In this document: positions 8,729 through 19,320 of the stretch, in pieces
Layout of the letters: every line of letters begins with the position of its first letter
How positions within the stretch are numbered: position 1 is the stretch's first letter
Assembly (NCBI GenBank): GCA_024635865.1
Contig: JAGXIB010000204.1
Span: 1-36,045, forward strand
Direction of reading: 5' to 3'
Source: Flavobacteriales bacterium
GTDB lineage: Bacteria; Bacteroidota; Bacteroidia; Flavobacteriales_D; Parvicellaceae
DNA length: 36,045 bases
The notes under the pieces: generated by a model
The model's input: the letters and a program-made list of their open reading frames with translations, nothing else
Told to the model about the DNA's origin: nothing
Database searches by the model: none
Made by a program: the position numbers and the translations under genes

Positions 8729-9583
8729 ATGAAATATTTTTTATTACTATTATTTATAATTACTTCAACAATTAATTATTCGCAATCAGACGAAGAACAA
8801 GAAGACGACGATATAAAAGGGACCGTCTTTTTCGGTCTAAATATTGGTGCTTTCAAAGCTAATAATAAAACAGCTCAAATTTATTCCGGAAACGTAACTG
8901 ATTATGGAGTTAGCTTCTATTTTAATAATATCTTTTATCAACCGGAGCTAGACCAATACTTTAAATACAATTACAGAATAAGTTCTTTTCCTAACCCTCA
9001 AACAATAAGATATAGAACTACTTTTAATGTGGGCGGACATGGAGGAATCAACATAGATGAATCTATAGCAATATATGCTGATATCCACATTATAAATTTA
9101 AAAGTTGAAGATGTATTTACAGTAGCGGTTGATAATCCCAACGATCCTACTTTAACAGGAAACCAACAGCTCGAACAAATTCCAATTTTCGGAGAAGAAA
9201 GTAGAACAAATCTAAATCTAGGAATACAAGCAAACTTTTACAGCGAAGGACCGATGAAAGCCTATTTCAACCTATTTGGAAATGTGAACAATACAAAACT
9301 AGAGGAGAACTATTTTGTGATTAATAATGAAAAGTATCCAATTATGCACAATGCCCTAGTTAATGGGACAACAACAACTGGTCAAGTTAAGTTCCAACAA
9401 TCAGTTCCTCCAGGCGGAGTTGGTTATGGTGGTGGTACAGGATTAGGTATTAAGTATAAATTTAATGAAAAATTCACCTTTGATGCGAACTATTATGGCA
9501 TCTATACAAGGACAAGAATGAATGCAACGTTTAAACCATTTGGATTAAATCATGCTTTTGTTGCTCGAATTATTTGGGGGTAA
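8729..9583 (+). CDS. Secreted/outer-membrane-type hypothetical protein
   Basis: N-terminal signal peptide (MKYFLLLLFIITSTINYSQ), aromatic/Gly-rich alternating strands. Confidence 0.55.
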   Translation: MKYFLLLLFIITSTINYSQSDEEQEDDDIKGTVFFGLNIGAFKANNKTAQIYSGNVTDYGVSFYFNNIFYQPELDQYFKYNYRISSFPNPQTIRYRTTFNVGGHGGINIDESIAIYADIHIINLKVEDVFTVAVDNPNDPTLTGNQQLEQIPIFGEESRTNLNLGIQANFYSEGPMKAYFNLFGNVNNTKLEENYFVINNEKYPIMHNALVNGTTTTGQVKFQQSVPPGGVGYGGGTGLGIKYKFNEKFTFDANYYGIYTRTRMNATFKPFGLNHAFVARIIWG

Positions 9584-9649
9584 CTATATTAATTTGTTGG
9601 CAGTAATACTATAAAAGCGAAAACAAAGCACAAATCAAATTCTTATTTA

Positions 9650-9657
9650 TATATTTG
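9650..9657 (+). promoter_or_regulatory. Putative -7 promoter element for the RloA/RloB operon
   Basis: TATATTTG followed by C, 27 nt upstream of ATG; matches TAnnTTTG. Confidence 0.5.
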
Positions 9658-9684
9658 CACAATAAACGCAAATTATAAAATAGA

Positions 9685-11007
9685 ATGAAACTTCAAGAAT
9701 TTAGTTTTGGAAATTTTAAGTCATTTAAAGATATTCAAACTCTTAACCTTTCTTCTGCAAAGATAAAATCTAAAAACCCAGAGATTGATACGCTTAATGT
9801 CATCAAAGGTAGAAATCAAGAGAACACGTCTTTTTTAAAATCTAAAGCAATATATGGAGCAAATGCAAGTGGTAAAAGTAATATTATCAAGGCATTGGTT
9901 ACATTTATTAGAATTGTAAGAACTTCTGTAAAAGATGAAGATATTCTCGATGCTATGATTGAACCTTTTAGGTTGTCAACTGAAACGGATAATCAACCAA
10001 GTTTTTTTCAAATGATCTTTTGGCATAATGAGATTAAGTACCGATATGGTTTTGAATTAAATGATGAAAATATTATTGCAGAATGGTTGTATGGGAAACC
10101 TGGAGATAGAGAGTTACCTTTTTTTATAAGAGAAAATCAAGAAGTTATAGAACTTGATAAAACAAACTTTGGCGAAGGTCATAAATTAATAAGTTTATTA
10201 GATGATGACTCAGAAGACAATGATATTTTCAGACATAATTCGTTATTTCTTTCAACTCTTGCCACTTTTGGGTTTGGTAAATTATCCAAACAATTAGTTG
10301 AAAGCATTGCATCAATTTCAGTAATTAGCGGACTAGGACATCAAGGAATGTACAACTACGCTGGTGAGTCTTTAAAAGAAAAAAAGAAAAAAAGTTTTAT
10401 CCTTGATTTTCTAAAATATGGAGACATTGGTATTGATGATGTTGAATCAATTGAAGTTTCATCGGATGATTTACCTGAAGATGTTGATGACGATATTAAA
10501 AGTGATTTTGAAAAAAAGAAAAAAAGAAAATTTCTTATTTCAACTAGGAAAAAATTTGATGAAAATTTAGTTTCTTCCGAAAAAGAATCTTTTTCTTTTG
10601 GAAGTAATGAATCAGAAGGAACAAAAAAACTATTTGAATTAAGTCCATTTATTTATAACGCACTTAAAGAAAAAGAAGTTATTGTAATTGATGAATTTGA
10701 TGCAAGGTTTCATCCTTTATTAACTAAAAAAATATTGGAACTTTTTAACTCAGATAGTAATGAAGGTTCACAGTTTATTTTTACAACACACGATACAAAC
10801 CTATTATCTTCTAATTCACTAAGAAGAGACCAAATTGAATTTGTTGAAAAAGATAAGTATGGCGCAAGTCATTTATACTCACTAAGTCAATTTAAAGGTA
10901 TTAGAAATACGGCATCTTTTGAAAAGGATTATATTCAAGGAAAATACGGAGCAATTCCTTTTTTAGGAGATTTCAGTAAACTATTAACCCCTAAAGAAGA
11001 TGCCTAA
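9685..11007 (+). CDS. AAA-family ATPase, RloA/AbiLi-like (AAA_15/AAA_21 type)
   Basis: Walker A AIYGANASGKSNIIKAL; Walker B EVIVIDEFDARFHPLL; FIFTTHDTNLL; coupled to a RloB-like gene. Confidence 0.9.
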   Translation: MKLQEFSFGNFKSFKDIQTLNLSSAKIKSKNPEIDTLNVIKGRNQENTSFLKSKAIYGANASGKSNIIKALVTFIRIVRTSVKDEDILDAMIEPFRLSTETDNQPSFFQMIFWHNEIKYRYGFELNDENIIAEWLYGKPGDRELPFFIRENQEVIELDKTNFGEGHKLISLLDDDSEDNDIFRHNSLFLSTLATFGFGKLSKQLVESIASISVISGLGHQGMYNYAGESLKEKKKKSFILDFLKYGDIGIDDVESIEVSSDDLPEDVDDDIKSDFEKKKKRKFLISTRKKFDENLVSSEKESFSFGSNESEGTKKLFELSPFIYNALKEKEVIVIDEFDARFHPLLTKKILELFNSDSNEGSQFIFTTHDTNLLSSNSLRRDQIEFVEKDKYGASHLYSLSQFKGIRNTASFEKDYIQGKYGAIPFLGDFSKLLTPKEDA

Positions 11008-11692
11008 AAAGTCCAAATCAATTAAAATAACAGATGTTAAGGCACAGAAACCGTGGCTAAAGAAAGTTAATAATTCACTCTACCGTGTAGATTCGATAGA
11101 GACCAATAAAACTATCTTAATTGTTGGAGAAGGCCAAACTGAAAAATTGTATTTCGAATCTTTTCCGGTATTGACTCTAACGGTAGAGGCAATCGATTTA
11201 AAAGGTCAAAGTAAATTAAAGTTAATTGATTCAACTAAATCGATAATTGAAAATAATCAAACAGAATATGACGAAGTATGGTGTGTTTTTGATATGGATG
11301 TTAAACAAGGAGAAAAAGAATTCTCTGATTTTGATAACGCTATCACTAAAGGCAAAGCATTAAACTATAATATAGCATACTCTAACGACTCTTTCGAATT
11401 ATGGTTTTATTTACATTTCAATTTTACCGACCAAAAGCATCATAGAACTTTTTATTATCAGTTTCTTGGAGAACAATGGGATCTCAACTATGAAAAAGAT
11501 GGTAAATCTTATAAGTTTTGTCAAACAATTTATTCGAAACTCGAAAATGACGAAAATGCATCACAGGAAAATGCAATTGAACGTGCCGAAAAACTTTACA
11601 AGGAACAATCTGATTTACCATTCCATCAACAAAACCCAGTATCGTTAATCTTTAAACTAGTTAAATATCTTAATTCAAACAAAAGGAAATAA
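11000..11692 (+). CDS. RloB/AbiLii-like protein (putative TOPRIM-like nuclease partner)
   Basis: ILIVGEGQTEKLYFESFP, VWCVFDMD, NDSFELWFYLHF typical of RloB family; start codon overlaps the upstream ATPase stop (8-nt overlap). Confidence 0.88.
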   Translation: MPKKSKSIKITDVKAQKPWLKKVNNSLYRVDSIETNKTILIVGEGQTEKLYFESFPVLTLTVEAIDLKGQSKLKLIDSTKSIIENNQTEYDEVWCVFDMDVKQGEKEFSDFDNAITKGKALNYNIAYSNDSFELWFYLHFNFTDQKHHRTFYYQFLGEQWDLNYEKDGKSYKFCQTIYSKLENDENASQENAIERAEKLYKEQSDLPFHQQNPVSLIFKLVKYLNSNKRK

Positions 11693-11697
11693 ACACT

Positions 11698-11900
11698 ATT
11701 GCGAACACTACCTATAGTTAATGCGGAGATTCTGCTAAACTGAAATTTCGTACTTATACTCAAGTCCGACAAATCGTTGATTTGGCTTTTAAAACAAAAA
11801 AGATAAAATCAAAATACAACGATTTGGCTAAGTGCTAACTTGAAAGTTTGTCGCTTTCTACTGCCCTACTTGCCATATACTCAGTCGTTATCAACAACTA
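11698..11900 (+). repeat. Structured intergenic repeat, copy A
   Basis: Inverted repeats CAAATCGTTG (11770-11779)/CAACGATTTG (11817-11826) and TCAAGT (11760-11765)/ACTTGA (11838-11843); shares core ATTTGGCTTTTAAAAC..AAAAGATAAAAT and CTTTCTACTGCCCTA (11854-11868) with other copies. Confidence 0.75.
11886..11895 (+). repeat. Left arm of 10-bp inverted repeat framing the S41 peptidase gene
   Basis: CGTTATCAAC; exact reverse complement of GTTGATAACG at 13556-13565. Confidence 0.8.
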
Positions 11901-11902
11901 TA

Positions 11903-13552
11903 ATGAGAATACACTTATTAATCATATTTATTTTATTATTTCTTGGAAATAGATCCTTTGCCCAAGAACAATTAAGTGAAACAGACAAACTAGTGCAATT
12001 AGCGAAAGTTTGGGGGTTTTTAAAATATTATCATCCTCAAGTCTCAAAAGGTAAGTTCGACTGGGATAAAGAACTAATTAATATAATTCCACAGTTAGAA
12101 AAAGCAAAAGATAAGAATGAAGTTTCAGTAGTTTATATAAATTGGTTAGAGTCTCTTGGTAGGGTAAGGAAGTGTCGGAAATGTGAAACCCAAACTATAG
12201 AAACTTTTGATAATAATTTCAATTTAGACTGGATTATTGACACCTCTTACTTTAGCAAAGAACTCACAAAGAGGTTAGTGAAAATTGAATCGAATAGACG
12301 TTTAGGTAAAAAACACTATGTAGAATATGGAAAAATTAAGCTGAGCGAGGCTCAAATGGTAAATGAAAAAGTGTATAATAAAATATCTTGGAAAGATTCA
12401 AATGTCCGTCTTATCACCTTATTTCGTTACTGGAACTTTGTCGAGTATTTTTTCCCTTATAAATACCAAACTGATAAACCTTGGGATAAGGTTTTGGAGT
12501 ATTCGATACCTGTTTTTTTGAATATTAAAACGGAAACTGAGTTTCATTTAGCGATGCTTGAATTGGTGGCAAGTATTAATGACAGTCATAGTGAATTTGT
12601 TACTCTTAAAACCTTTGAACACTTTGGAAATAAGTTTTTGCCTGTAACAATTGAATATTTAGACGGAGTTGGTATTGTAACAGGTTTTTATGATGACTCA
12701 TTGGCCTCTATCGATGATTTTAAAGTAGGAGATATTATAACTAAAATAAATGGTACAGATGTATCAACAAAATACGACTCGTTAAATAAATATATTATTG
12801 GTTCAAATGAGGGCAGAAAGAAATCCCGTTCTTTTAAACACATATTCAACGGAACTACAGATTCTGTTCAAATACAATTCAAACGCGATGGAAATCTATA
12901 TTCAAAAGTGGTTCATAGACACCTCTATAAAGATTTTGCCCCTAAGAAGAGGAGTGAACAGACCTATGAAGTTCTTACCGACAACATTGGCTATATAAAT
13001 ATGGGCTGGCTTGAAAGAGACAGTGTTCACAAAGTCTATAATAAATTAGACTCAACCAGTGGTTTAATTTTAGACTTTAGAAACGGTTCTCCGAAAGGCA
13101 CATGGGATGTAGTCATTGACTATATTTCGTCTAGTGAAAATCAATTTTGCAGAATTATTTACCCTCTATTGAATTATCCAGGAAAGTATGTTCTACAAGA
13201 ACCATTCTCTTGTGGAACGAATTCACCAAGAAAATATAAAGGCAAAGTAGTCTTACTTGTAAATGAAAATACGCAAAGTCATGGTGAGTATTCTTTAATG
13301 AGCCTTCAAACTGGAGATAATGTGATTACAGTAGGCTCGAGAACATCGGGGGCAGATGGTAACACGACTACATTTAGAATATTTGATAATTATAAAACTA
13401 TAATAACTGGTACAGGAGTATTTTATCCTGATATGTCTATAACTCAAAGAAAAGGTGTAATGATCGATTATGAAGTTAAACCAACTATTGAGGGACTTTC
13501 CGTAAATAAAGATGAATTTCTTTTGAAAGCGATTCATTTATTAAATAACTAG
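11903..13552 (+). CDS. Secreted S41-family peptidase (C-terminal processing/tricorn-like, with PDZ-like region)
   Basis: Start at 11903 gives signal peptide MRIHLLIIFILLFLGNRSFAQ; IDDFKVGDIITKINGTDV (PDZ); LLVNENTQSHGEYSLM and GSRTSGADGNTT (S41 core). Confidence 0.85.
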   Translation: MRIHLLIIFILLFLGNRSFAQEQLSETDKLVQLAKVWGFLKYYHPQVSKGKFDWDKELINIIPQLEKAKDKNEVSVVYINWLESLGRVRKCRKCETQTIETFDNNFNLDWIIDTSYFSKELTKRLVKIESNRRLGKKHYVEYGKIKLSEAQMVNEKVYNKISWKDSNVRLITLFRYWNFVEYFFPYKYQTDKPWDKVLEYSIPVFLNIKTETEFHLAMLELVASINDSHSEFVTLKTFEHFGNKFLPVTIEYLDGVGIVTGFYDDSLASIDDFKVGDIITKINGTDVSTKYDSLNKYIIGSNEGRKKSRSFKHIFNGTTDSVQIQFKRDGNLYSKVVHRHLYKDFAPKKRSEQTYEVLTDNIGYINMGWLERDSVHKVYNKLDSTSGLILDFRNGSPKGTWDVVIDYISSSENQFCRIIYPLLNYPGKYVLQEPFSCGTNSPRKYKGKVVLLVNENTQSHGEYSLMSLQTGDNVITVGSRTSGADGNTTTFRIFDNYKTIITGTGVFYPDMSITQRKGVMIDYEVKPTIEGLSVNKDEFLLKAIHLLNN

Positions 13553-13555
13553 AAT

Positions 13556-13565
13556 GTTGATAACG
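13556..13565 (-). repeat. Right arm of 10-bp inverted repeat framing the S41 peptidase gene
   Basis: GTTGATAACG, 3 nt after the S41 stop codon. Confidence 0.8.
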
Positions 13566-13687
13566 TCACCTAAAAACACTGCAACACTTGCTCTTCGAGT
13601 GATAAATCATCCTAAACCCAATCGTACCCCTTTAAAATTATTACTTAATTTTATGGATAGCAGCAATTTTTTAGCTGCCGAACGTTA
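13561..13687 (+). repeat. Putative attC-like intergenic element with terminal inverted repeat TAACGT..ACGTTA
   Basis: TAACGT (13561-13566)/ACGTTA (13682-13687); internal pairings CACTTG/CGAGTG (13585-13590/13596-13601) and GCAGC/GCTGC (13660-13664/13674-13678). Confidence 0.35.
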
Positions 13688-13700
13688 AAGTTAATAAAAA

Positions 13701-14324
13701 ATGAATATTGAAAAAGCATATAATATTTGGGCTAATCAATATGATACCAATAAAAATCGAACAAGAGATTTAGACAAAAAATCTACAATTGATACTTTAA
13801 GTAAATTAGATTTTGAAAATGTTTTAGAACTTGGCTGTGGTACTGGAAAAAACACAAGTTGGTTATTGAAAAAATCTAAACGAATTATAGGTCTAGATTT
13901 TTCTCAAGAAATGCTAAATAAAGCCAAAGCAAAAATATCCGACAAAAGAGTTTCATTTAGAAAAGCAGATTTGAATAAGGATTGGGAAACTGAGAATGAT
14001 TTTACTGATTTAATAACTTGTAGTTTAACACTTGAACATATAAAAGATTTAAATCACATTTTTCATCAAGCAAATCTAAAATTAAGAAAAAATGGAATAT
14101 TTTTCATCAGTGAATTACATCCTTTTATGCAATACTCTGGAAGTAAAGCCAAATATGAAACTGAGAACGGAACTTATGAATTAGAAGTCTATACACACCA
14201 CATTTCTGAATATATAGATAATGCTAAAAATAATAACTTAAAATTAGTTGAAGTCAATGAATGGTTTGACCAAAACGAAAAAAATGAAATTCCTAGATTG
14301 ATATCCTTTGTCTTTAAAAAATAA
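13701..14324 (+). CDS. Class I SAM-dependent methyltransferase
   Basis: VLELGCGTGKNTSWLL, IIGLDFSQEML, ITCSLTLEHIKD. Confidence 0.85.
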   Translation: MNIEKAYNIWANQYDTNKNRTRDLDKKSTIDTLSKLDFENVLELGCGTGKNTSWLLKKSKRIIGLDFSQEMLNKAKAKISDKRVSFRKADLNKDWETENDFTDLITCSLTLEHIKDLNHIFHQANLKLRKNGIFFISELHPFMQYSGSKAKYETENGTYELEVYTHHISEYIDNAKNNNLKLVEVNEWFDQNEKNEIPRLISFVFKK

Positions 14325-14335
14325 AAACTAGCAAT

Positions 14336-14470
14336 GAATACGGAACAACGCCAAAAATAAAATTTGGCTATAAGACTAGAAAAGATAAAATGTTTATATT
14401 TGGCTAGAAGGTACTTAAAAATTAACTACCAAACTAACCTTTCGTTTTTTATATTACACTTTATGGGCAA
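14336..14470 (+). repeat. Structured intergenic repeat, copy C
   Basis: CCAAAAATAAA (14351-14361)/TTTATATTTGG (14393-14403) pair 10/11; core ATTTGGCTATAAGACTAGAAAAGATAAAAT and following TTTGGCTA align with copy A. Confidence 0.6.
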
Positions 14471-14483
14471 TAAAAAAGCAGAA

Positions 14484-15641
14484 ATGAAAGTCGTTAATTT
14501 TATCATCTGTGTACTAATCGCAACAAATGGTTTTTCACAGGTTAATACATTTTACATTGAACCAGTTCTAACAGATCCAAATTATAATGCTGTTCAAGAT
14601 AGTCATATGGTTGTCAGAAACACGGTAACTACCAATGATAAACTTCTTTTATTCATAGGTGGTACAGGATCTAAAACTAAAAATTACTTACGAATTTCTG
14701 AATTTGCTGGAAATCTAGGGTATGATGTTATTAATGTCTCATATCCCAATAGTATAGCTGCAGCTAGTCTGGCAAACTCATCAGATAACTTAGTATTTAA
14801 TAACTATCGTCAAGAAATATGTTACGGAACTAATTTAAGTTCTGATGTGAGCGTTGATAGTTTAAATTCTATATTTACGAGAGTTGTTAACCTAATAAAT
14901 TATCTGGATACAGCTTATCCTTCGCAAAACTGGAGTCAATATTTAATTTCTTCTAACACATTAAATTGGTCTAAAATAGCAGTAGCTGGTCATTCCCAAG
15001 GTGCAGGTCATGCTTGTTACTTTGCAAAATATGAAAGCACAGAAAGAGTACTTATGTTTTCAGGTCCTAATGATTACAGTAATCACTTTGCTCAACCTGC
15101 AAATTGGTTAGGAATACCAGGGGTTACTCAGAAAAACAGGCATTTTGTATATCTAAGCTTGTATGACGAGGCTGTTGAGTTCAGCAAGCAGCTCAGCAAC
15201 ATTAGTGATTTAGGAATTTATCCCGAGACTGACACAGTGCATGTTGATGTGACAAATTCCCCTTTCAATAATTCTCATTGTCTGTTCACAACACAACCCC
15301 CAGGTTTAGTTATTTTAAATCATAACTCTACCATAAAATGGAGCATATTAAATAATTCGGTCTGGGAATACATGTTAACTTCGGAAAGTACTACCAACGT
15401 TAAGGAAATTGAATACAATCATTTATTTTCAATTTATCCTAATCCAGCAAAATCACAATTGAACATACAACCTAAGAAAAATATATTAGGTAAAACTTAC
15501 TATGTTAGGAACAATATAGGTCAAGTTATTTGGTCAGGTACAGTAAATGATTCCTCAATTAGCATAAGCCTGACTGAATTTCTTTCGGGATTATACTTCT
15601 TTAGTATTGAAAATCAAACATCAGCATTCATTAAAGAATAA
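14484..15641 (+). CDS. Secreted alpha/beta-hydrolase-like protein with T9SS type A C-terminal sorting domain
   Basis: Signal peptide MKVVNFIICVLIATNGFSQ from 14484 (the track's 14364 start is a TTG inside repeat C); nucleophile elbow VAGHSQGAGHA; C-terminal FSIYPNPAKSQLNIQ...GLYFFSIENQ..AFIKE. Confidence 0.82.
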   Translation: MKVVNFIICVLIATNGFSQVNTFYIEPVLTDPNYNAVQDSHMVVRNTVTTNDKLLLFIGGTGSKTKNYLRISEFAGNLGYDVINVSYPNSIAAASLANSSDNLVFNNYRQEICYGTNLSSDVSVDSLNSIFTRVVNLINYLDTAYPSQNWSQYLISSNTLNWSKIAVAGHSQGAGHACYFAKYESTERVLMFSGPNDYSNHFAQPANWLGIPGVTQKNRHFVYLSLYDEAVEFSKQLSNISDLGIYPETDTVHVDVTNSPFNNSHCLFTTQPPGLVILNHNSTIKWSILNNSVWEYMLTSESTTNVKEIEYNHLFSIYPNPAKSQLNIQPKKNILGKTYYVRNNIGQVIWSGTVNDSSISISLTEFLSGLYFFSIENQTSAFIKE

Positions 15642-15685
15642 AAAGCACATAACACTTTGTAAAAATGAATTAAAACAAATTTTAC

Positions 15686-15948
15686 ACTAAACGCTAGCGT
15701 CAATAAGTCATAAAATTGGATAATAAATGAGTCAATCAGCAAAAAGTGTTTTCATTTATGGTGTCAATTTAGCGCTTTGCTAGTAATTGCACCTAATGTG
15801 CTACTTAACTTGTTTGGTATCGAACCTACTAATGGAGTTTGGATTAGACTTGAGGGTATTTTATTAGTGGCAACTACCGTCTATTATTTCATAGGTGCCA
15901 AATATGAGCTTATTTTGATCTTGAAGGCAACTACTTTAGTTGATTTAC
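15686..15948 (+). repeat. Direct duplication, copy 1 (paired with 17317-17590)
   Basis: Near-identical from ACTAAACGCTAGC to GATTTA, with a 10-nt deletion relative to copy 2 (GTAGGACTAA missing after TTTAGCGCTT). Confidence 0.9.
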
Positions 15949-15952
15949 TTTA
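15727..15952 (+). pseudogene. Truncated, frameshifted copy of the membrane protein encoded at 17358-17801
   Basis: Reads MSQSAKSVFIYGVNLALC* then frameshifts into LVIAPNVLLNLFGIEPTNGVWIRLEGILLVATTVYYFIGAKYELILILKAT. Confidence 0.88.
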
Positions 15953-16034
15953 AATTTAATACCTAAAAAAACTATTCATAAAGTTCCTATTGACTACGAG
16001 CCTATGATGAAGTGTCTTCGCACTTATAAGTAAG

Positions 16035-16562
16035 TTATTTTATTATCAATTTTTCTATTATAGGTTCTCCAGAATTATAACCTTTTCCATAAAATAGAAT
16101 GTATTCGACTTTAACATTAATACCCAAAGTTCCACTTTTGACTTGTATAAACATCTTGTCTAAGTACATCTTATGCGTATTTACGGTAACATAAATTCTA
16201 GCTCCTTTACATTCATCATCATTGAGATAAAAATACATTCCTTTTCTAGAGACAAGGCGAAATTTAAATAAATTAGGTTTTGACTCTAATAGTTTCAATC
16301 GATAGGCAAACTTTTTTTCTATCCATGATAACGGCTTTTTTATACCACCCTGAGTATAAACTATTCGATATACTTTAATAGGCTGAGAAGAATCAATAAT
16401 CCCGTCTTTTGTATTTGCATCATACACTACAGTATTGTGGTTCTTACTATGTTGAATGTAAAATAGTCGGATGTTTTTTTTTGCTGGTTCTGGGTAATCG
16501 TTTTGTGTATATCCTGAAAAAAGAAAAAAAAACATCATAAAAAAAGAAAGAAGAGTATTCAT
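16035..16562 (-). CDS. Secreted DUF4833-like protein
   Basis: Signal peptide; NIRLFYIQHSKNHNTVVYDANTKDG...PIKVYRIVY; family assignment from memory of the motif. Confidence 0.6.
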   Translation of the reverse strand: MNTLLSFFMMFFFLFSGYTQNDYPEPAKKNIRLFYIQHSKNHNTVVYDANTKDGIIDSSQPIKVYRIVYTQGGIKKPLSWIEKKFAYRLKLLESKPNLFKFRLVSRKGMYFYLNDDECKGARIYVTVNTHKMYLDKMFIQVKSGTLGINVKVEYILFYGKGYNSGEPIIEKLIIK

Positions 16563-16683
16563 ATTGACTTTTATTTAACTTCTTACTAATAGTAGATATA
16601 TTATAAGATGTTATTCTATTTAAATTAGACCAGCATTTATAGTATATTTGTCTCTAGATTTTGTCCTCTGTTAGTTTTAACTA

Positions 16684-16990
16684 CTAAACTAACTTACAGC
16701 TTTCTTCGTCAAGTTTTGTTTCAATAGTATAATGCTTAAATTGATACTTTTCCAAAACTTCTTGGTATTTGCTTTTACCTTCAGAATTTGGTTAAACTCA
16801 TTAATTCGCGTTAGTTTCAAATGAGTTGTAAACACATGATGTTCTCAATCGAGAGACCAGATGTGCGTGTGATGTAATGAATATCTATTTTCTATATTTA
16901 GTGTTTTTTGTTCAATACCAATCAAGTCTACACTATTAAGAATTCCTTGTAAAAAAATAAAGAGTGTTTATTTTAAGCATCCAATAACTC
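16684..16990 (-). pseudogene. Remnant of a cation diffusion facilitator (CDF) transporter C-terminal domain
   Basis: Minus-strand reading: LK*TLFIFLQGILNSVDLIGIEQKTLNIENRYSLHHTHIWSLD*EHHVFTTHLKLTRINEFN then 1-nt frameshift to PNSEGKSKYQEVLEKYQFKHYTIETKLDEESCKLV*; stops at 16968-16970 (TAA) and 16845-16847 (TGA). Confidence 0.75.
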
Positions 16991-17316
16991 CCAATAGGAT
17001 ATGATGCTGTTTGCTTGCTATTTTTTTTTTAATTCATTATTTCACTTTTTTATATTAAGTTAATCGGATGATGCGTTCCTTAGTCATTTTCAACGTCTAT
17101 TTGCAATTCTTGATTATTTTTCATTGTATTTTCACATTCGTTGTGAATGAATTTTTACAACACTTCAAAGGTGAAATCTAATGCCTTATAAAGTCTTACA
17201 CAATTCAAAGTGATTGTTATATAATTATGTGATAAGGGGAAAGTTATAGACCTTAAAAGAGAAACTCATCTTGTTGGGGTTCAACTAATATCCCACCGAA
17301 AGTATACGTTTCTTGA

Positions 17317-17590
17317 ACTAAACGCTAGCATCAATAAGTCATAAAATTGGATAAGAAATGAGTAGATCAGCAAAAAGTGTTTTCATTTATGGTATATATT
17401 TAGCGCTTGTAGGACTAATGCTAGTAATTGCACCTAATGTGCTACTTAACTTGTTTGGTATCGAATCTACTAATGAAGTTTGGATTAGACTTGAGGGTAT
17501 TTTATTAATGGCAACTACCGTCTATTATTTCATAGGTGCCAAATATGAGCTTATTTTGATCTTGAAGGCAACTGCTTTTATTCGATTTAC
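17317..17590 (+). repeat. Direct duplication, copy 2
   Basis: See 15686-15948; carries the intact reading frame. Confidence 0.9.
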
Positions 17591-17801
17591 GGTAATTATT
17601 TTCTTTACTGCAATTGTCTTGCTTGAATTGGTATCTCCGAGCATAATAATAATCTCCGTAATTGACTTTTTAGGAGGTGCATGGACTTACTTAATGTTAA
17701 AAAAAGAAGGACATTTTGCTCGAAATAAAAATTTAATTACAAATGTTAAAAATGTATGTCAAGTCATCACCCCCTGTACGATGCTAAGCTTCATAAATTA
17801 A
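17358..17801 (+). CDS. Small multi-pass membrane protein of unknown function
   Basis: 147 aa with about four hydrophobic segments; intact version of the duplicated locus. Confidence 0.65.
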   Translation: MSRSAKSVFIYGIYLALVGLMLVIAPNVLLNLFGIESTNEVWIRLEGILLMATTVYYFIGAKYELILILKATAFIRFTVIIFFTAIVLLELVSPSIIIISVIDFLGGAWTYLMLKKEGHFARNKNLITNVKNVCQVITPCTMLSFIN

Positions 17802-18106
17802 GCTTTGCAAGGAATTCGTTATATTGCTTCATACTGAAAATAGCTTGACACAAAAATCAAACTAATATGGAAGATAAACAATTAGCAGACGAAATTAAGG
17901 AAGTATAGAAAAAGCAATTAAATAAATTATAGTTTCTATCAATATATGACCTCACATGAATTGTAAATTAATGACTCCAAATAAAGCTCATAAAATAGCA
18001 AAATTTAATAGAATAACTTGTAAGAAAATAATTCCAAACATTTAATGTATTTTTGATAAAACAACATGAAATAAGTAACCATCTATTTCGGCACAAGAAA
18101 TAAATC

Positions 18107-18538
18107 ATGAAACCCAAACAATACATAAAAAATGGTGAAGGTTAGAATTACAATTACTCGCAAGACCACTGCTTTGTTAAACTATTATCAAGAGACACGA
18201 ATGGAGAATTATGTTTAATTGAGGACACTTTAAAACCAGGATTTCATTTAAAGCGACATCATCATAAATTAATGACGGAGCTATTCTATATGTTGCTTGG
18301 CTAAATGGAGCTTATTTTTGATGATGAAAAAATTATTCTAAGAGAAGGAGATACTGTTACTGTCCCCCCAAACGTTTGGCATGAAGCCATTTATAAGGAA
18401 GGCGGAAAAATGCTTACAATATTTAAAAATGGACAGTTCGATATTTTCATAGAAACGCTTTCGAAAATGACTGAAGAGGATTTCTCTAATCAAGAATTAA
18501 TGAAAACTATTTCTAACAAATTTGACATCTATGAATAA
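18107..18538 (+). pseudogene. Cupin-domain protein gene with two in-frame nonsense codons
   Basis: One frame: MKPKQYIKNGEG*NYNYSQDHCFVKLLSRDTNGELCLIEDTLKPGFHLKRHHHKLMTELFYMLLG*MELIFDDEKIILREGDTVTVPPNVWHEAIYKEGG...; stops at 18143-18145 (TAG) and 18302-18304 (TAA); the track's 18305 ORF is only the 3' part. Confidence 0.8.
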
Positions 18539-18574
18539 TAAAAACTCCTTACAACTCGGTAATAACAAATAAGG

Positions 18575-18720
18575 CTTTTGTGATTTACAAGAGTCCAGTG
18601 CTAGTCTACTTACCTCTCGAAATTATTGATTTGGTATTTAAGAATAAAAACACAACGTTTTGGATCACAGCAAACCTATAAACTTAGCCCTTTCTACTGC
18701 CCTAATTAACGAACACTAAC
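18575..18720 (+). repeat. Structured intergenic repeat, copy B (degenerate)
   Basis: CGAAATTATTG (18618-18628)/CAACGTTTTGG (18653-18663) partly paired; ATTGATTTGGTATTTAA core; CTTTCTACTGCCCTA (18690-18704) identical 15-mer to copy A. Confidence 0.65.
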
Positions 18721-18773
18721 CGTTTAAATCTTCTTAAAAGCATCTATTATCTATTAACATTAAGAAATAGATA

Positions 18774-18812
18774 AAAACAAAAAAAGGGACAATTCAATGA
18801 ATTGTCCCTTTT
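18774..18812 (-). terminator. Intrinsic terminator at the end of the ribosomal cluster (downstream of rplQ)
   Basis: AAAAGGGACAATT CAATG AATTGTCCCTTTT (18782-18812) flanked by an A-rich run that is a U-run on the minus strand. Confidence 0.92.
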
Positions 18813-18831
18813 AAATTAAAGTTAGAATATC

Positions 18832-19320
18832 TTATTCTTCTTCTGCCGAGTCTTCAGCTTTCGTTTCTGCTTTAGCAGCAGTATCTTCAGCTTTAGGAGC
18901 AGTAGTTTTCTTAGCTCTTCTTCTAGTTTTCTTCTTAGGAGCTGTATCAGCCAATAATAATTCGTTGAAATCAACTAATTCTATCATTGCCATTTCTGCA
19001 TTATCTCCAGAACGGTTAGGCAACTTTATAATTCTAGTATACCCTCCCTGTCTTGTTTCTACCTTAGGTGCAACTGTTCTAAACAATTCTACTGCAGCTT
19101 CTTTACTCTTTAAGTAACTAAAAACAGTTCTTCTTGAGTGAGTTGAATCCGTTTTTGATTTTGTAACCAAAGGTTCAACATATACTCTTAAAGCTTTAGC
19201 CTTAGCTAAAGTTGTAACTATTCTTTTATGTTCAATTAAAGAACAAGCCATGTTAGAAAGCATTGCTTTTCTATGTGCTGACTTACGTCCTAAGTGATTA
19301 AATTTCTTACCGTGTCTCAT
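18832..19320 (-). CDS. rplQ: 50S ribosomal protein L17 (with low-complexity K/A/E C-terminal extension)
   Basis: [37 protein letters not shown]. Confidence 0.97.

Follow-up and report, generated by a model that had tools for sequence, protein, structure and literature searches.

AbiL is, to our knowledge, a named defence system with a poorly known mechanism. In Lactococcus lactis it was described as a plasmid-borne operon of two genes, one for an ATPase and one for a protein of the RloB family (Deng et al. 1999, as cited in PMC10440598). A pair of Clostridium algidicarnis, TOPRIM_OLD(D44, RloB):AAA(D29), was validated as a toxin with its neutralising ATPase, and a related AAA-neutralised pair of A. 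guerrae, whose toxin is a different one, gave no protection when screened against coliphages (PMC10440598). AriB, the TOPRIM protein of PARIS, cleaves tRNA as a two-metal nuclease (PMC12409363). In OLD nucleases, metal A is bound by E, D and D, and the ligands of metal B are an E or D four residues past the first E and an S/T/D-x-E pair (PMC7049728).

The window analysed here, a 36,045-nt stretch of DNA from a Flavobacteriales bacterium, carries a pair of similar make-up on its forward strand. An AbiLi-like ABC/SMC-type AAA_21 ATPase of 440 aa (positions 9685-11007) is followed by an intact, AbiLii-like RloB protein of 230 aa, a putative TOPRIM nuclease (11000-11692), which is the only RloB gene in the draft genome of this organism. 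The original prediction of an AbiL-like pair with an 8-nt gene overlap was borne out, as both reading frames lie where predicted and share exactly 8 nt (ATGCCTAA, 11000-11007). Among the defence models of PADLOC, the ATPase matched AbiLi (PDLC02335, 6.9e-92, residues 2-435) and RloB matched AbiLii (PDLC02337, 1.5e-25), the latter model being matched by all 32 RloB sequences of the alignment as well. In Pfam, RloB matched PF13707 over the full profile (1.4e-38), and the ATPase belonged to AAA_21 (PF13304, 5.2e-34) and not to AAA_15, the other family that had been suggested. By sequence, the ATPase/RloB pair is an intact member of the known AbiL family. Its core is of a known kind, because a related RloB/ATPase pair was previously tested as toxin and neutraliser (PMC10440598), and the features worth following are the dyad at the promoter, the lesions confined to the effector and the ends of the cassette. 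The pair differs from the lactococcal system in being a chromosomal cassette of Bacteroidota that is known from its sequence alone, and a promoter dyad and cassette-end repeats are described here for it. With the D44/D29 pair of C. algidicarnis it shares, at the level of gene families and in another host, the make-up of RloB plus AAA ATPase.

The ATPase was predicted to have intact Walker motifs, and all of its catalytic motifs are invariant or nearly so among 33 sequences. These are the Walker A motif GANASGKSN (residues 58-66, 9856-9882), the ABC signature SEGTKK (residues 310-315, 10612-10629) with S310, G312 and K315 invariant, the Walker B/D-loop (E)VIVIDEFD (10675-10701), in which VIDEFD forms residues 334-339 and D336, E337, F338 and D339 are invariant, and the near-invariant H-loop histidine H369. 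The AlphaFold2 (AF2) model (pTM 0.84) was matched by Foldseek to Rad50, to SMC heads and to the Septu protein PtuA, and PtuA is the solved ATPase closest to it in sequence profile and one of the best matches in fold.

The RloB protein has six acidic positions that are invariant in 32 relatives, E44, E48, D98, D100, D130 and E133. The TOPRIM-like layout of the original prediction, a conserved Glu in VGEGQTEK followed by FDMD, corresponds to E44 and to D98/D100. By analogy with OLD, E44 and E48 in EGQTE (11129-11143) are putative ligands of metal A and metal B, respectively, D98-x-D100 (11291-11299) would complete metal A, and D130 and E133 in SNDSFE (11387-11398) would complete metal B; the three segments align to the EGxTE, DxD and DFE of OLD, and the last acidic pair is spaced DxxE in RloB as against S/T/DxE in OLD. 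Comparison by hhalign of the RloB profile with OLD-TOPRIM domains of the same class gave a score of 39.5 and a probability of 75%, which is not decisive in itself, while 300 column shuffles gave 20.7 at most and EGxTE, DxD and the final E fell in register. The control profiles of lumazine synthase, reversed OLD and DUF4435 scored only 12-17 against RloB. The shuffles were made on columns with less than 50% gaps and yielded no outliers; an earlier set without the gap filter had included three scores near 130, for which gap-dominated shuffled profiles are suspected.

The predicted structure of RloB agrees with a TOPRIM layout in part. The AF2 model, of fair confidence (pTM 0.71), alternates strands and helices and places E44 and D98 at strand ends, but no TOPRIM protein appeared among the top 50 Foldseek matches in the PDB, and the sole convincing match was another RloB-like protein. 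The Foldseek matches to TesA and lumazine synthase were set aside as generic Rossmann-like similarity, the profile score of lumazine synthase being at noise level, and PDB searches with the RloB sequence or its profile returned only ribosomal-protein noise. The assignment of RloB to TOPRIM was also made by HHpred in PMC10440598. Altogether, the TOPRIM assignment is well supported by sequence, and the fold leaves it unproven.

The parallel that had been drawn with OLD, Gabija and PARIS holds for the design and not for membership. The ATPase and the TOPRIM protein are separate genes in PARIS (AriA and AriB), as they are here, but RloB scored only 12-16 by hhalign against DUF4435, used as a stand-in for the PARIS nuclease AriB, which is the level of the controls, and had no DUF4435 match in Pfam; PARIS was rejected as the family of the pair. 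In OLD, in GajA of Gabija and in the retron Eco8 effector, an ABC ATPase and a TOPRIM domain are fused in one protein, whereas the present pair consists of two. Gabija was likewise rejected, as the two reading frames do not make a single-chain ATPase-TOPRIM protein and no UvrD-like helicase is found among the neighbours; within the island, neither a helicase nor a reverse transcriptase partner was found. Septu PtuA is an ATPase like the one described here, but its partner is an HNH nuclease in place of RloB.

The pairing of the two genes is conserved far beyond this organism. A protein search with one genome per species gave 45 close-relative loci in many families of Bacteroidota, and the ATPase lies directly before RloB in nearly all of those with enough upstream sequence, with an overlap of -8 or -1 nt in most. 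Within the class, the RloB family was found in 37 of 295 sampled genomes, about one in eight, and all 29 RloB loci that were fetched carry the ATPase immediately upstream, even where identity falls to about 27% in parts. Among viral contigs no relative was found; two distant, unannotated phage matches were obtained.

When the genes of about 41 close-relative copies were read frame by frame, eight RloB genes were found to carry a single lesion each, while the RloB of the window is intact. One A is gained in L005, L008 and L029, all three from cultured isolates, and one A is lost in L031; L032 has a frameshift, L046 a frameshift at codon 97, L039 a change of the start ATG to ATA, and L042 a nonsense codon. 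No broken ATPase gene was found in 39 full-length copies, though this gene is almost twice as long as that of RloB, and under equal per-codon rates the chance that all eight lesions fall in RloB is about 2.5e-4, a value that leaves relatedness and sequencing error unmodelled. The confinement of the lesions to RloB suggests that RloB is a costly effector and the ATPase its restrainer; such lesions are as expected for this division of roles, which agrees with the toxicity-neutralisation test of PMC10440598. The lesions might instead be homopolymer errors of sequencing or assembly, uninformative on the effector. Four of the eight, those of L005, L008, L029 and L031, are slips in A tracts within the first 12 codons, and five of the eight lesioned copies come from metagenome bins; against this, none was found in 39 copies of the longer ATPase gene, three lesions are in cultured isolates, and two are a nonsense codon and an ATG-to-ATA start, so that we regard the error reading as rather unlikely. 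The poly-A lesions of RloB could also reflect contingency switching or transcriptional slippage.

A TAnnTTTG promoter had been predicted immediately upstream of the pair. The box TATATTTG, a -7 promoter element, is present at 9650-9657 on the forward strand, 27 nt before the ATG of the ATPase gene, and 29 of 38 homologues have TAnnTTTG conserved in their upstream region, where 3.0 would be expected. The box by itself is at chance level, with 51 occurrences in the window against 57 expected, and because it is no commoner than chance in this AT-rich window, its meaning comes from conservation. It also proved to be half of a larger element, being the left inner half-site of a dyad, CTTATT-n6-TTTG-n11-CAAA-n6-AATAAG, which overlaps the promoter as a putative operator at 9642-9684 with two mismatches. 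In the upstream alignment, 78% of the dyad positions are Watson-Crick symmetric at one axis and at most 53% at all others, the pairing of the arms falls from 82% to 39-53% when they are slid by 1-3 columns, and the covariation score of the arms exceeds those of all 500 shuffles (0/500). The palindrome score is weak in many single sequences, including that of the window, and the dyad became clear only when a common axis was tested across the alignment. In distant clades the outer arms differ, and TTTG-N11-CAAA is present in 7 of 22 boxes (P about 1e-9, with relatedness unmodelled).

Within its own genome, 9642-9684 is the single site with two or fewer mismatches to the dyad, whereas sites with three mismatches are as many as in a reversed-pattern control. 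Being private, moving with the operon and overlapping the promoter, the dyad is most simply read as an autoregulatory operator, and it is likely, from comparison of the upstream sequences, that it serves the pair in this way. The dyad might alternatively be bound by a regulator of the host or reflect promoter geometry without any autoregulation, given that no recognised DNA-binding domain was found in either the ATPase or RloB and that the left half of the dyad coincides with the promoter box. We consider this improbable, though far from negligible, since the dyad is private to the AbiL promoter in the genome and accompanies the genes into unrelated hosts, and since CAAA at +11 is no general feature of TAnnTTTG boxes, being found in only 6 of 621 (1%) in the background.

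As to the origin of the pair, none of six congeners gave a homologue at E <= 1e-20, and among 18 other family members the one match was distant and partial. The copies of Ulvibacter, Olleya and Kordia share 80-84% identity with RloB, although the neighbouring dehydrogenase is only 62-63% identical in those genomes. Most of the relatives checked keep the upstream gene order (the dehydrogenase gene and 8729-9583), but their downstream content differs and no synteny was found past 9583. Together with cassette-like boundaries, these results support the proposed accessory island, and the pair was apparently acquired horizontally, to judge from the sequence comparisons. A clean empty site was not found among same-genus contigs, which break or carry other genes past the conserved block, and the GC content of the unit showed no clear difference from its surroundings.

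Outside two sister pairs, the neighbourhoods of 37 relative loci, with 137 genes in all, have almost no gene in common, which argues that what moves is the pair together with its operator. The name Rlo originally meant 'R-linked', in the sense of type I restriction. If RloA/RloB were a housekeeping pair tied to such a restriction system, this would accord with the family name, and a type I specificity subunit was matched by one of 129 neighbour genes of the relatives; with no restriction gene in the island of the window and with almost no neighbours common to the relatives, we regard such an attachment as very improbable.

In several relatives inverted repeats border the unit, with GTTGGCAATAATAC ahead of the pair and GTACTATTGCCAAC immediately behind it; they are perfect in, for example, L003, Olleya marilimosa. 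The left repeat of the window, GTTGGCAGTAATAC (9596-9609, forward strand), differs at one position from GTTGGCAATAATAC, the sequence that borders the unit in L002, L003, L009 and L010. The right repeat (11693-11706, forward strand) is degenerate (ACACTATTGCGAAC as against GTACTATTGCCAAC) and directly follows the stop codon of RloB, an arrangement shared with L002, L003, L009, L010 and L011. Such ends were found in the window and in L002, L003, L007, L009, L010, L011, L020, L042 and L046, with a consensus of roughly GTTRGCnnTAATAC / GTACTAnnGCYAAC and with changes that compensate each other in L011 and L042. A value of p <= 0.02 was reached by seven loci against 0.7 expected, a test by which the window itself is not singled out. 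Together, the inverted repeats in several relatives and the unrelated contexts indicate that the unit behaves as a mobile cassette, which we consider likely.

Between the unit and the next gene, at 11699-11894, lies a tentative attC-like folding element with AAC...GTT ends (DNA fold z = -2.5, one of 100 shuffles as stable); the fold is significant in the window, L007 and L011 and not in L009, L010 and L020. Overall, attC-like sites showed no general excess (115 against 165 in reversed sequence). The folding elements with such ends at some borders resemble attC sites of integrons, and the cassettes may be related to these. A canonical integron was nevertheless not claimed, as no IntI integrase (TIGR02249) scored over the cut-off in the draft genome itself (91% complete) or in 60 relatives. 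Separately, L197-L200 of relatives (G013, G020, G029 and G440) encode IntI-like tyrosine recombinases that match TIGR02249 in two pieces and lack the stretch around profile positions 180-238.

Several further features were observed in the island. Further attC-like elements with AAC...GTT ends lie between island genes at 13562-13686 and about 18560-18720, and an S41 peptidase gene has end repeats of its own, GTTATCAAC near 11889 and GTTGATAAC near 13556. The segments 11771-11871 and 18620-18707 are related repeats, and 15686-15937 and 17317-17578 form a near-identical duplication (92-98%), in which a small membrane-protein-like gene is intact in one copy (17358-17801) and broken in the other (15777). 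The gene at 13701-14324 encodes a class I methyltransferase, whose match to mad2 of methylation-associated defence (1.4e-15) covers the methyltransferase part only and is probably generic. A search of 9500-18900 against Rfam gave no match.

At the level of the encoded proteins, the ATPase is an intact ABC enzyme of the SMC/Rad50-like kind, and RloB, likewise intact, has the acidic residues of an OLD-type TOPRIM nuclease. The two genes overlap in one operon, and we consider it probable that their products form a self-contained toxin/neutraliser unit of the AbiL type, that is, a putative self-sacrificing defence against phage by abortive infection. The ATPase would assemble, keep RloB inactive and sense infection; upon sensing a phage product it would release or activate RloB, which would cut nucleic acid with two metal ions, its target being, as the parallel with AriB and RNase M5 suggests, somewhat more likely tRNA or another RNA than DNA. 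The cleavage would stop translation and phage growth at the expense of the cell. The gene overlap may keep the ATPase and RloB in proportion, and the dyad, centred near the transcription start, may be bound by the ATPase, by RloB or by the two in complex, so that autorepression would keep expression low. The unit would spread as a cassette of roughly 2.1 kb between short inverted repeats.

Instead of the host, the target might be the phage, with RloB acting as a TOPRIM DNase on phage DNA, by direct cutting or nicking, and the ATPase as a sensor or loader on DNA. The OLD-TOPRIM family consists mostly of DNases, and direct cutting of phage DNA has been proposed for OLD and Gabija; in addition, the ATPase head is nearest to Rad50/SMC, families that work on DNA, and the profile of RloB is closer to OLD-TOPRIM than to DUF4435. 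Against this, the lesions found only in the effector gene and the fact that a related RloB-type toxin is neutralised by its ATPase (PMC10440598) both suggest a product that harms the cell in which it is made, and PARIS shows that such a two-gene layout is able to act on tRNA (PMC12409363), so that direct attack on phage DNA appears the less plausible course, with only a modest chance of being correct.

The abortive-infection reading may be extended, as a speculative proposal that we hold to be doubtful, to a general picture of AbiL in Bacteroidota as a self-regulated and self-bounded mobile cassette, in which the ATPase/RloB complex holds down its own promoter by way of a co-evolving dyad at the transcription start, and the poly-A tracts at the beginning of the nuclease gene are contingency (slippage) sites that switch the costly RloB off while the ATPase is kept. 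If the complex does act in this way, its disassembly triggered by phage would release the nuclease and at the same time lift the repression of the operon.

The comparative evidence for a private dyad, for stand-alone movement of the cassette and for repeated loss of the nuclease half only is new here. From sequence alone, the comparative data assign the role of costly effector to RloB and that of restrainer to the ATPase, and they name the catalytic residues of RloB for mutation. Binding at the 43-bp element would show whether defence pairs of an ATPase and a TOPRIM protein autoregulate in the manner of toxin-antitoxin operons.
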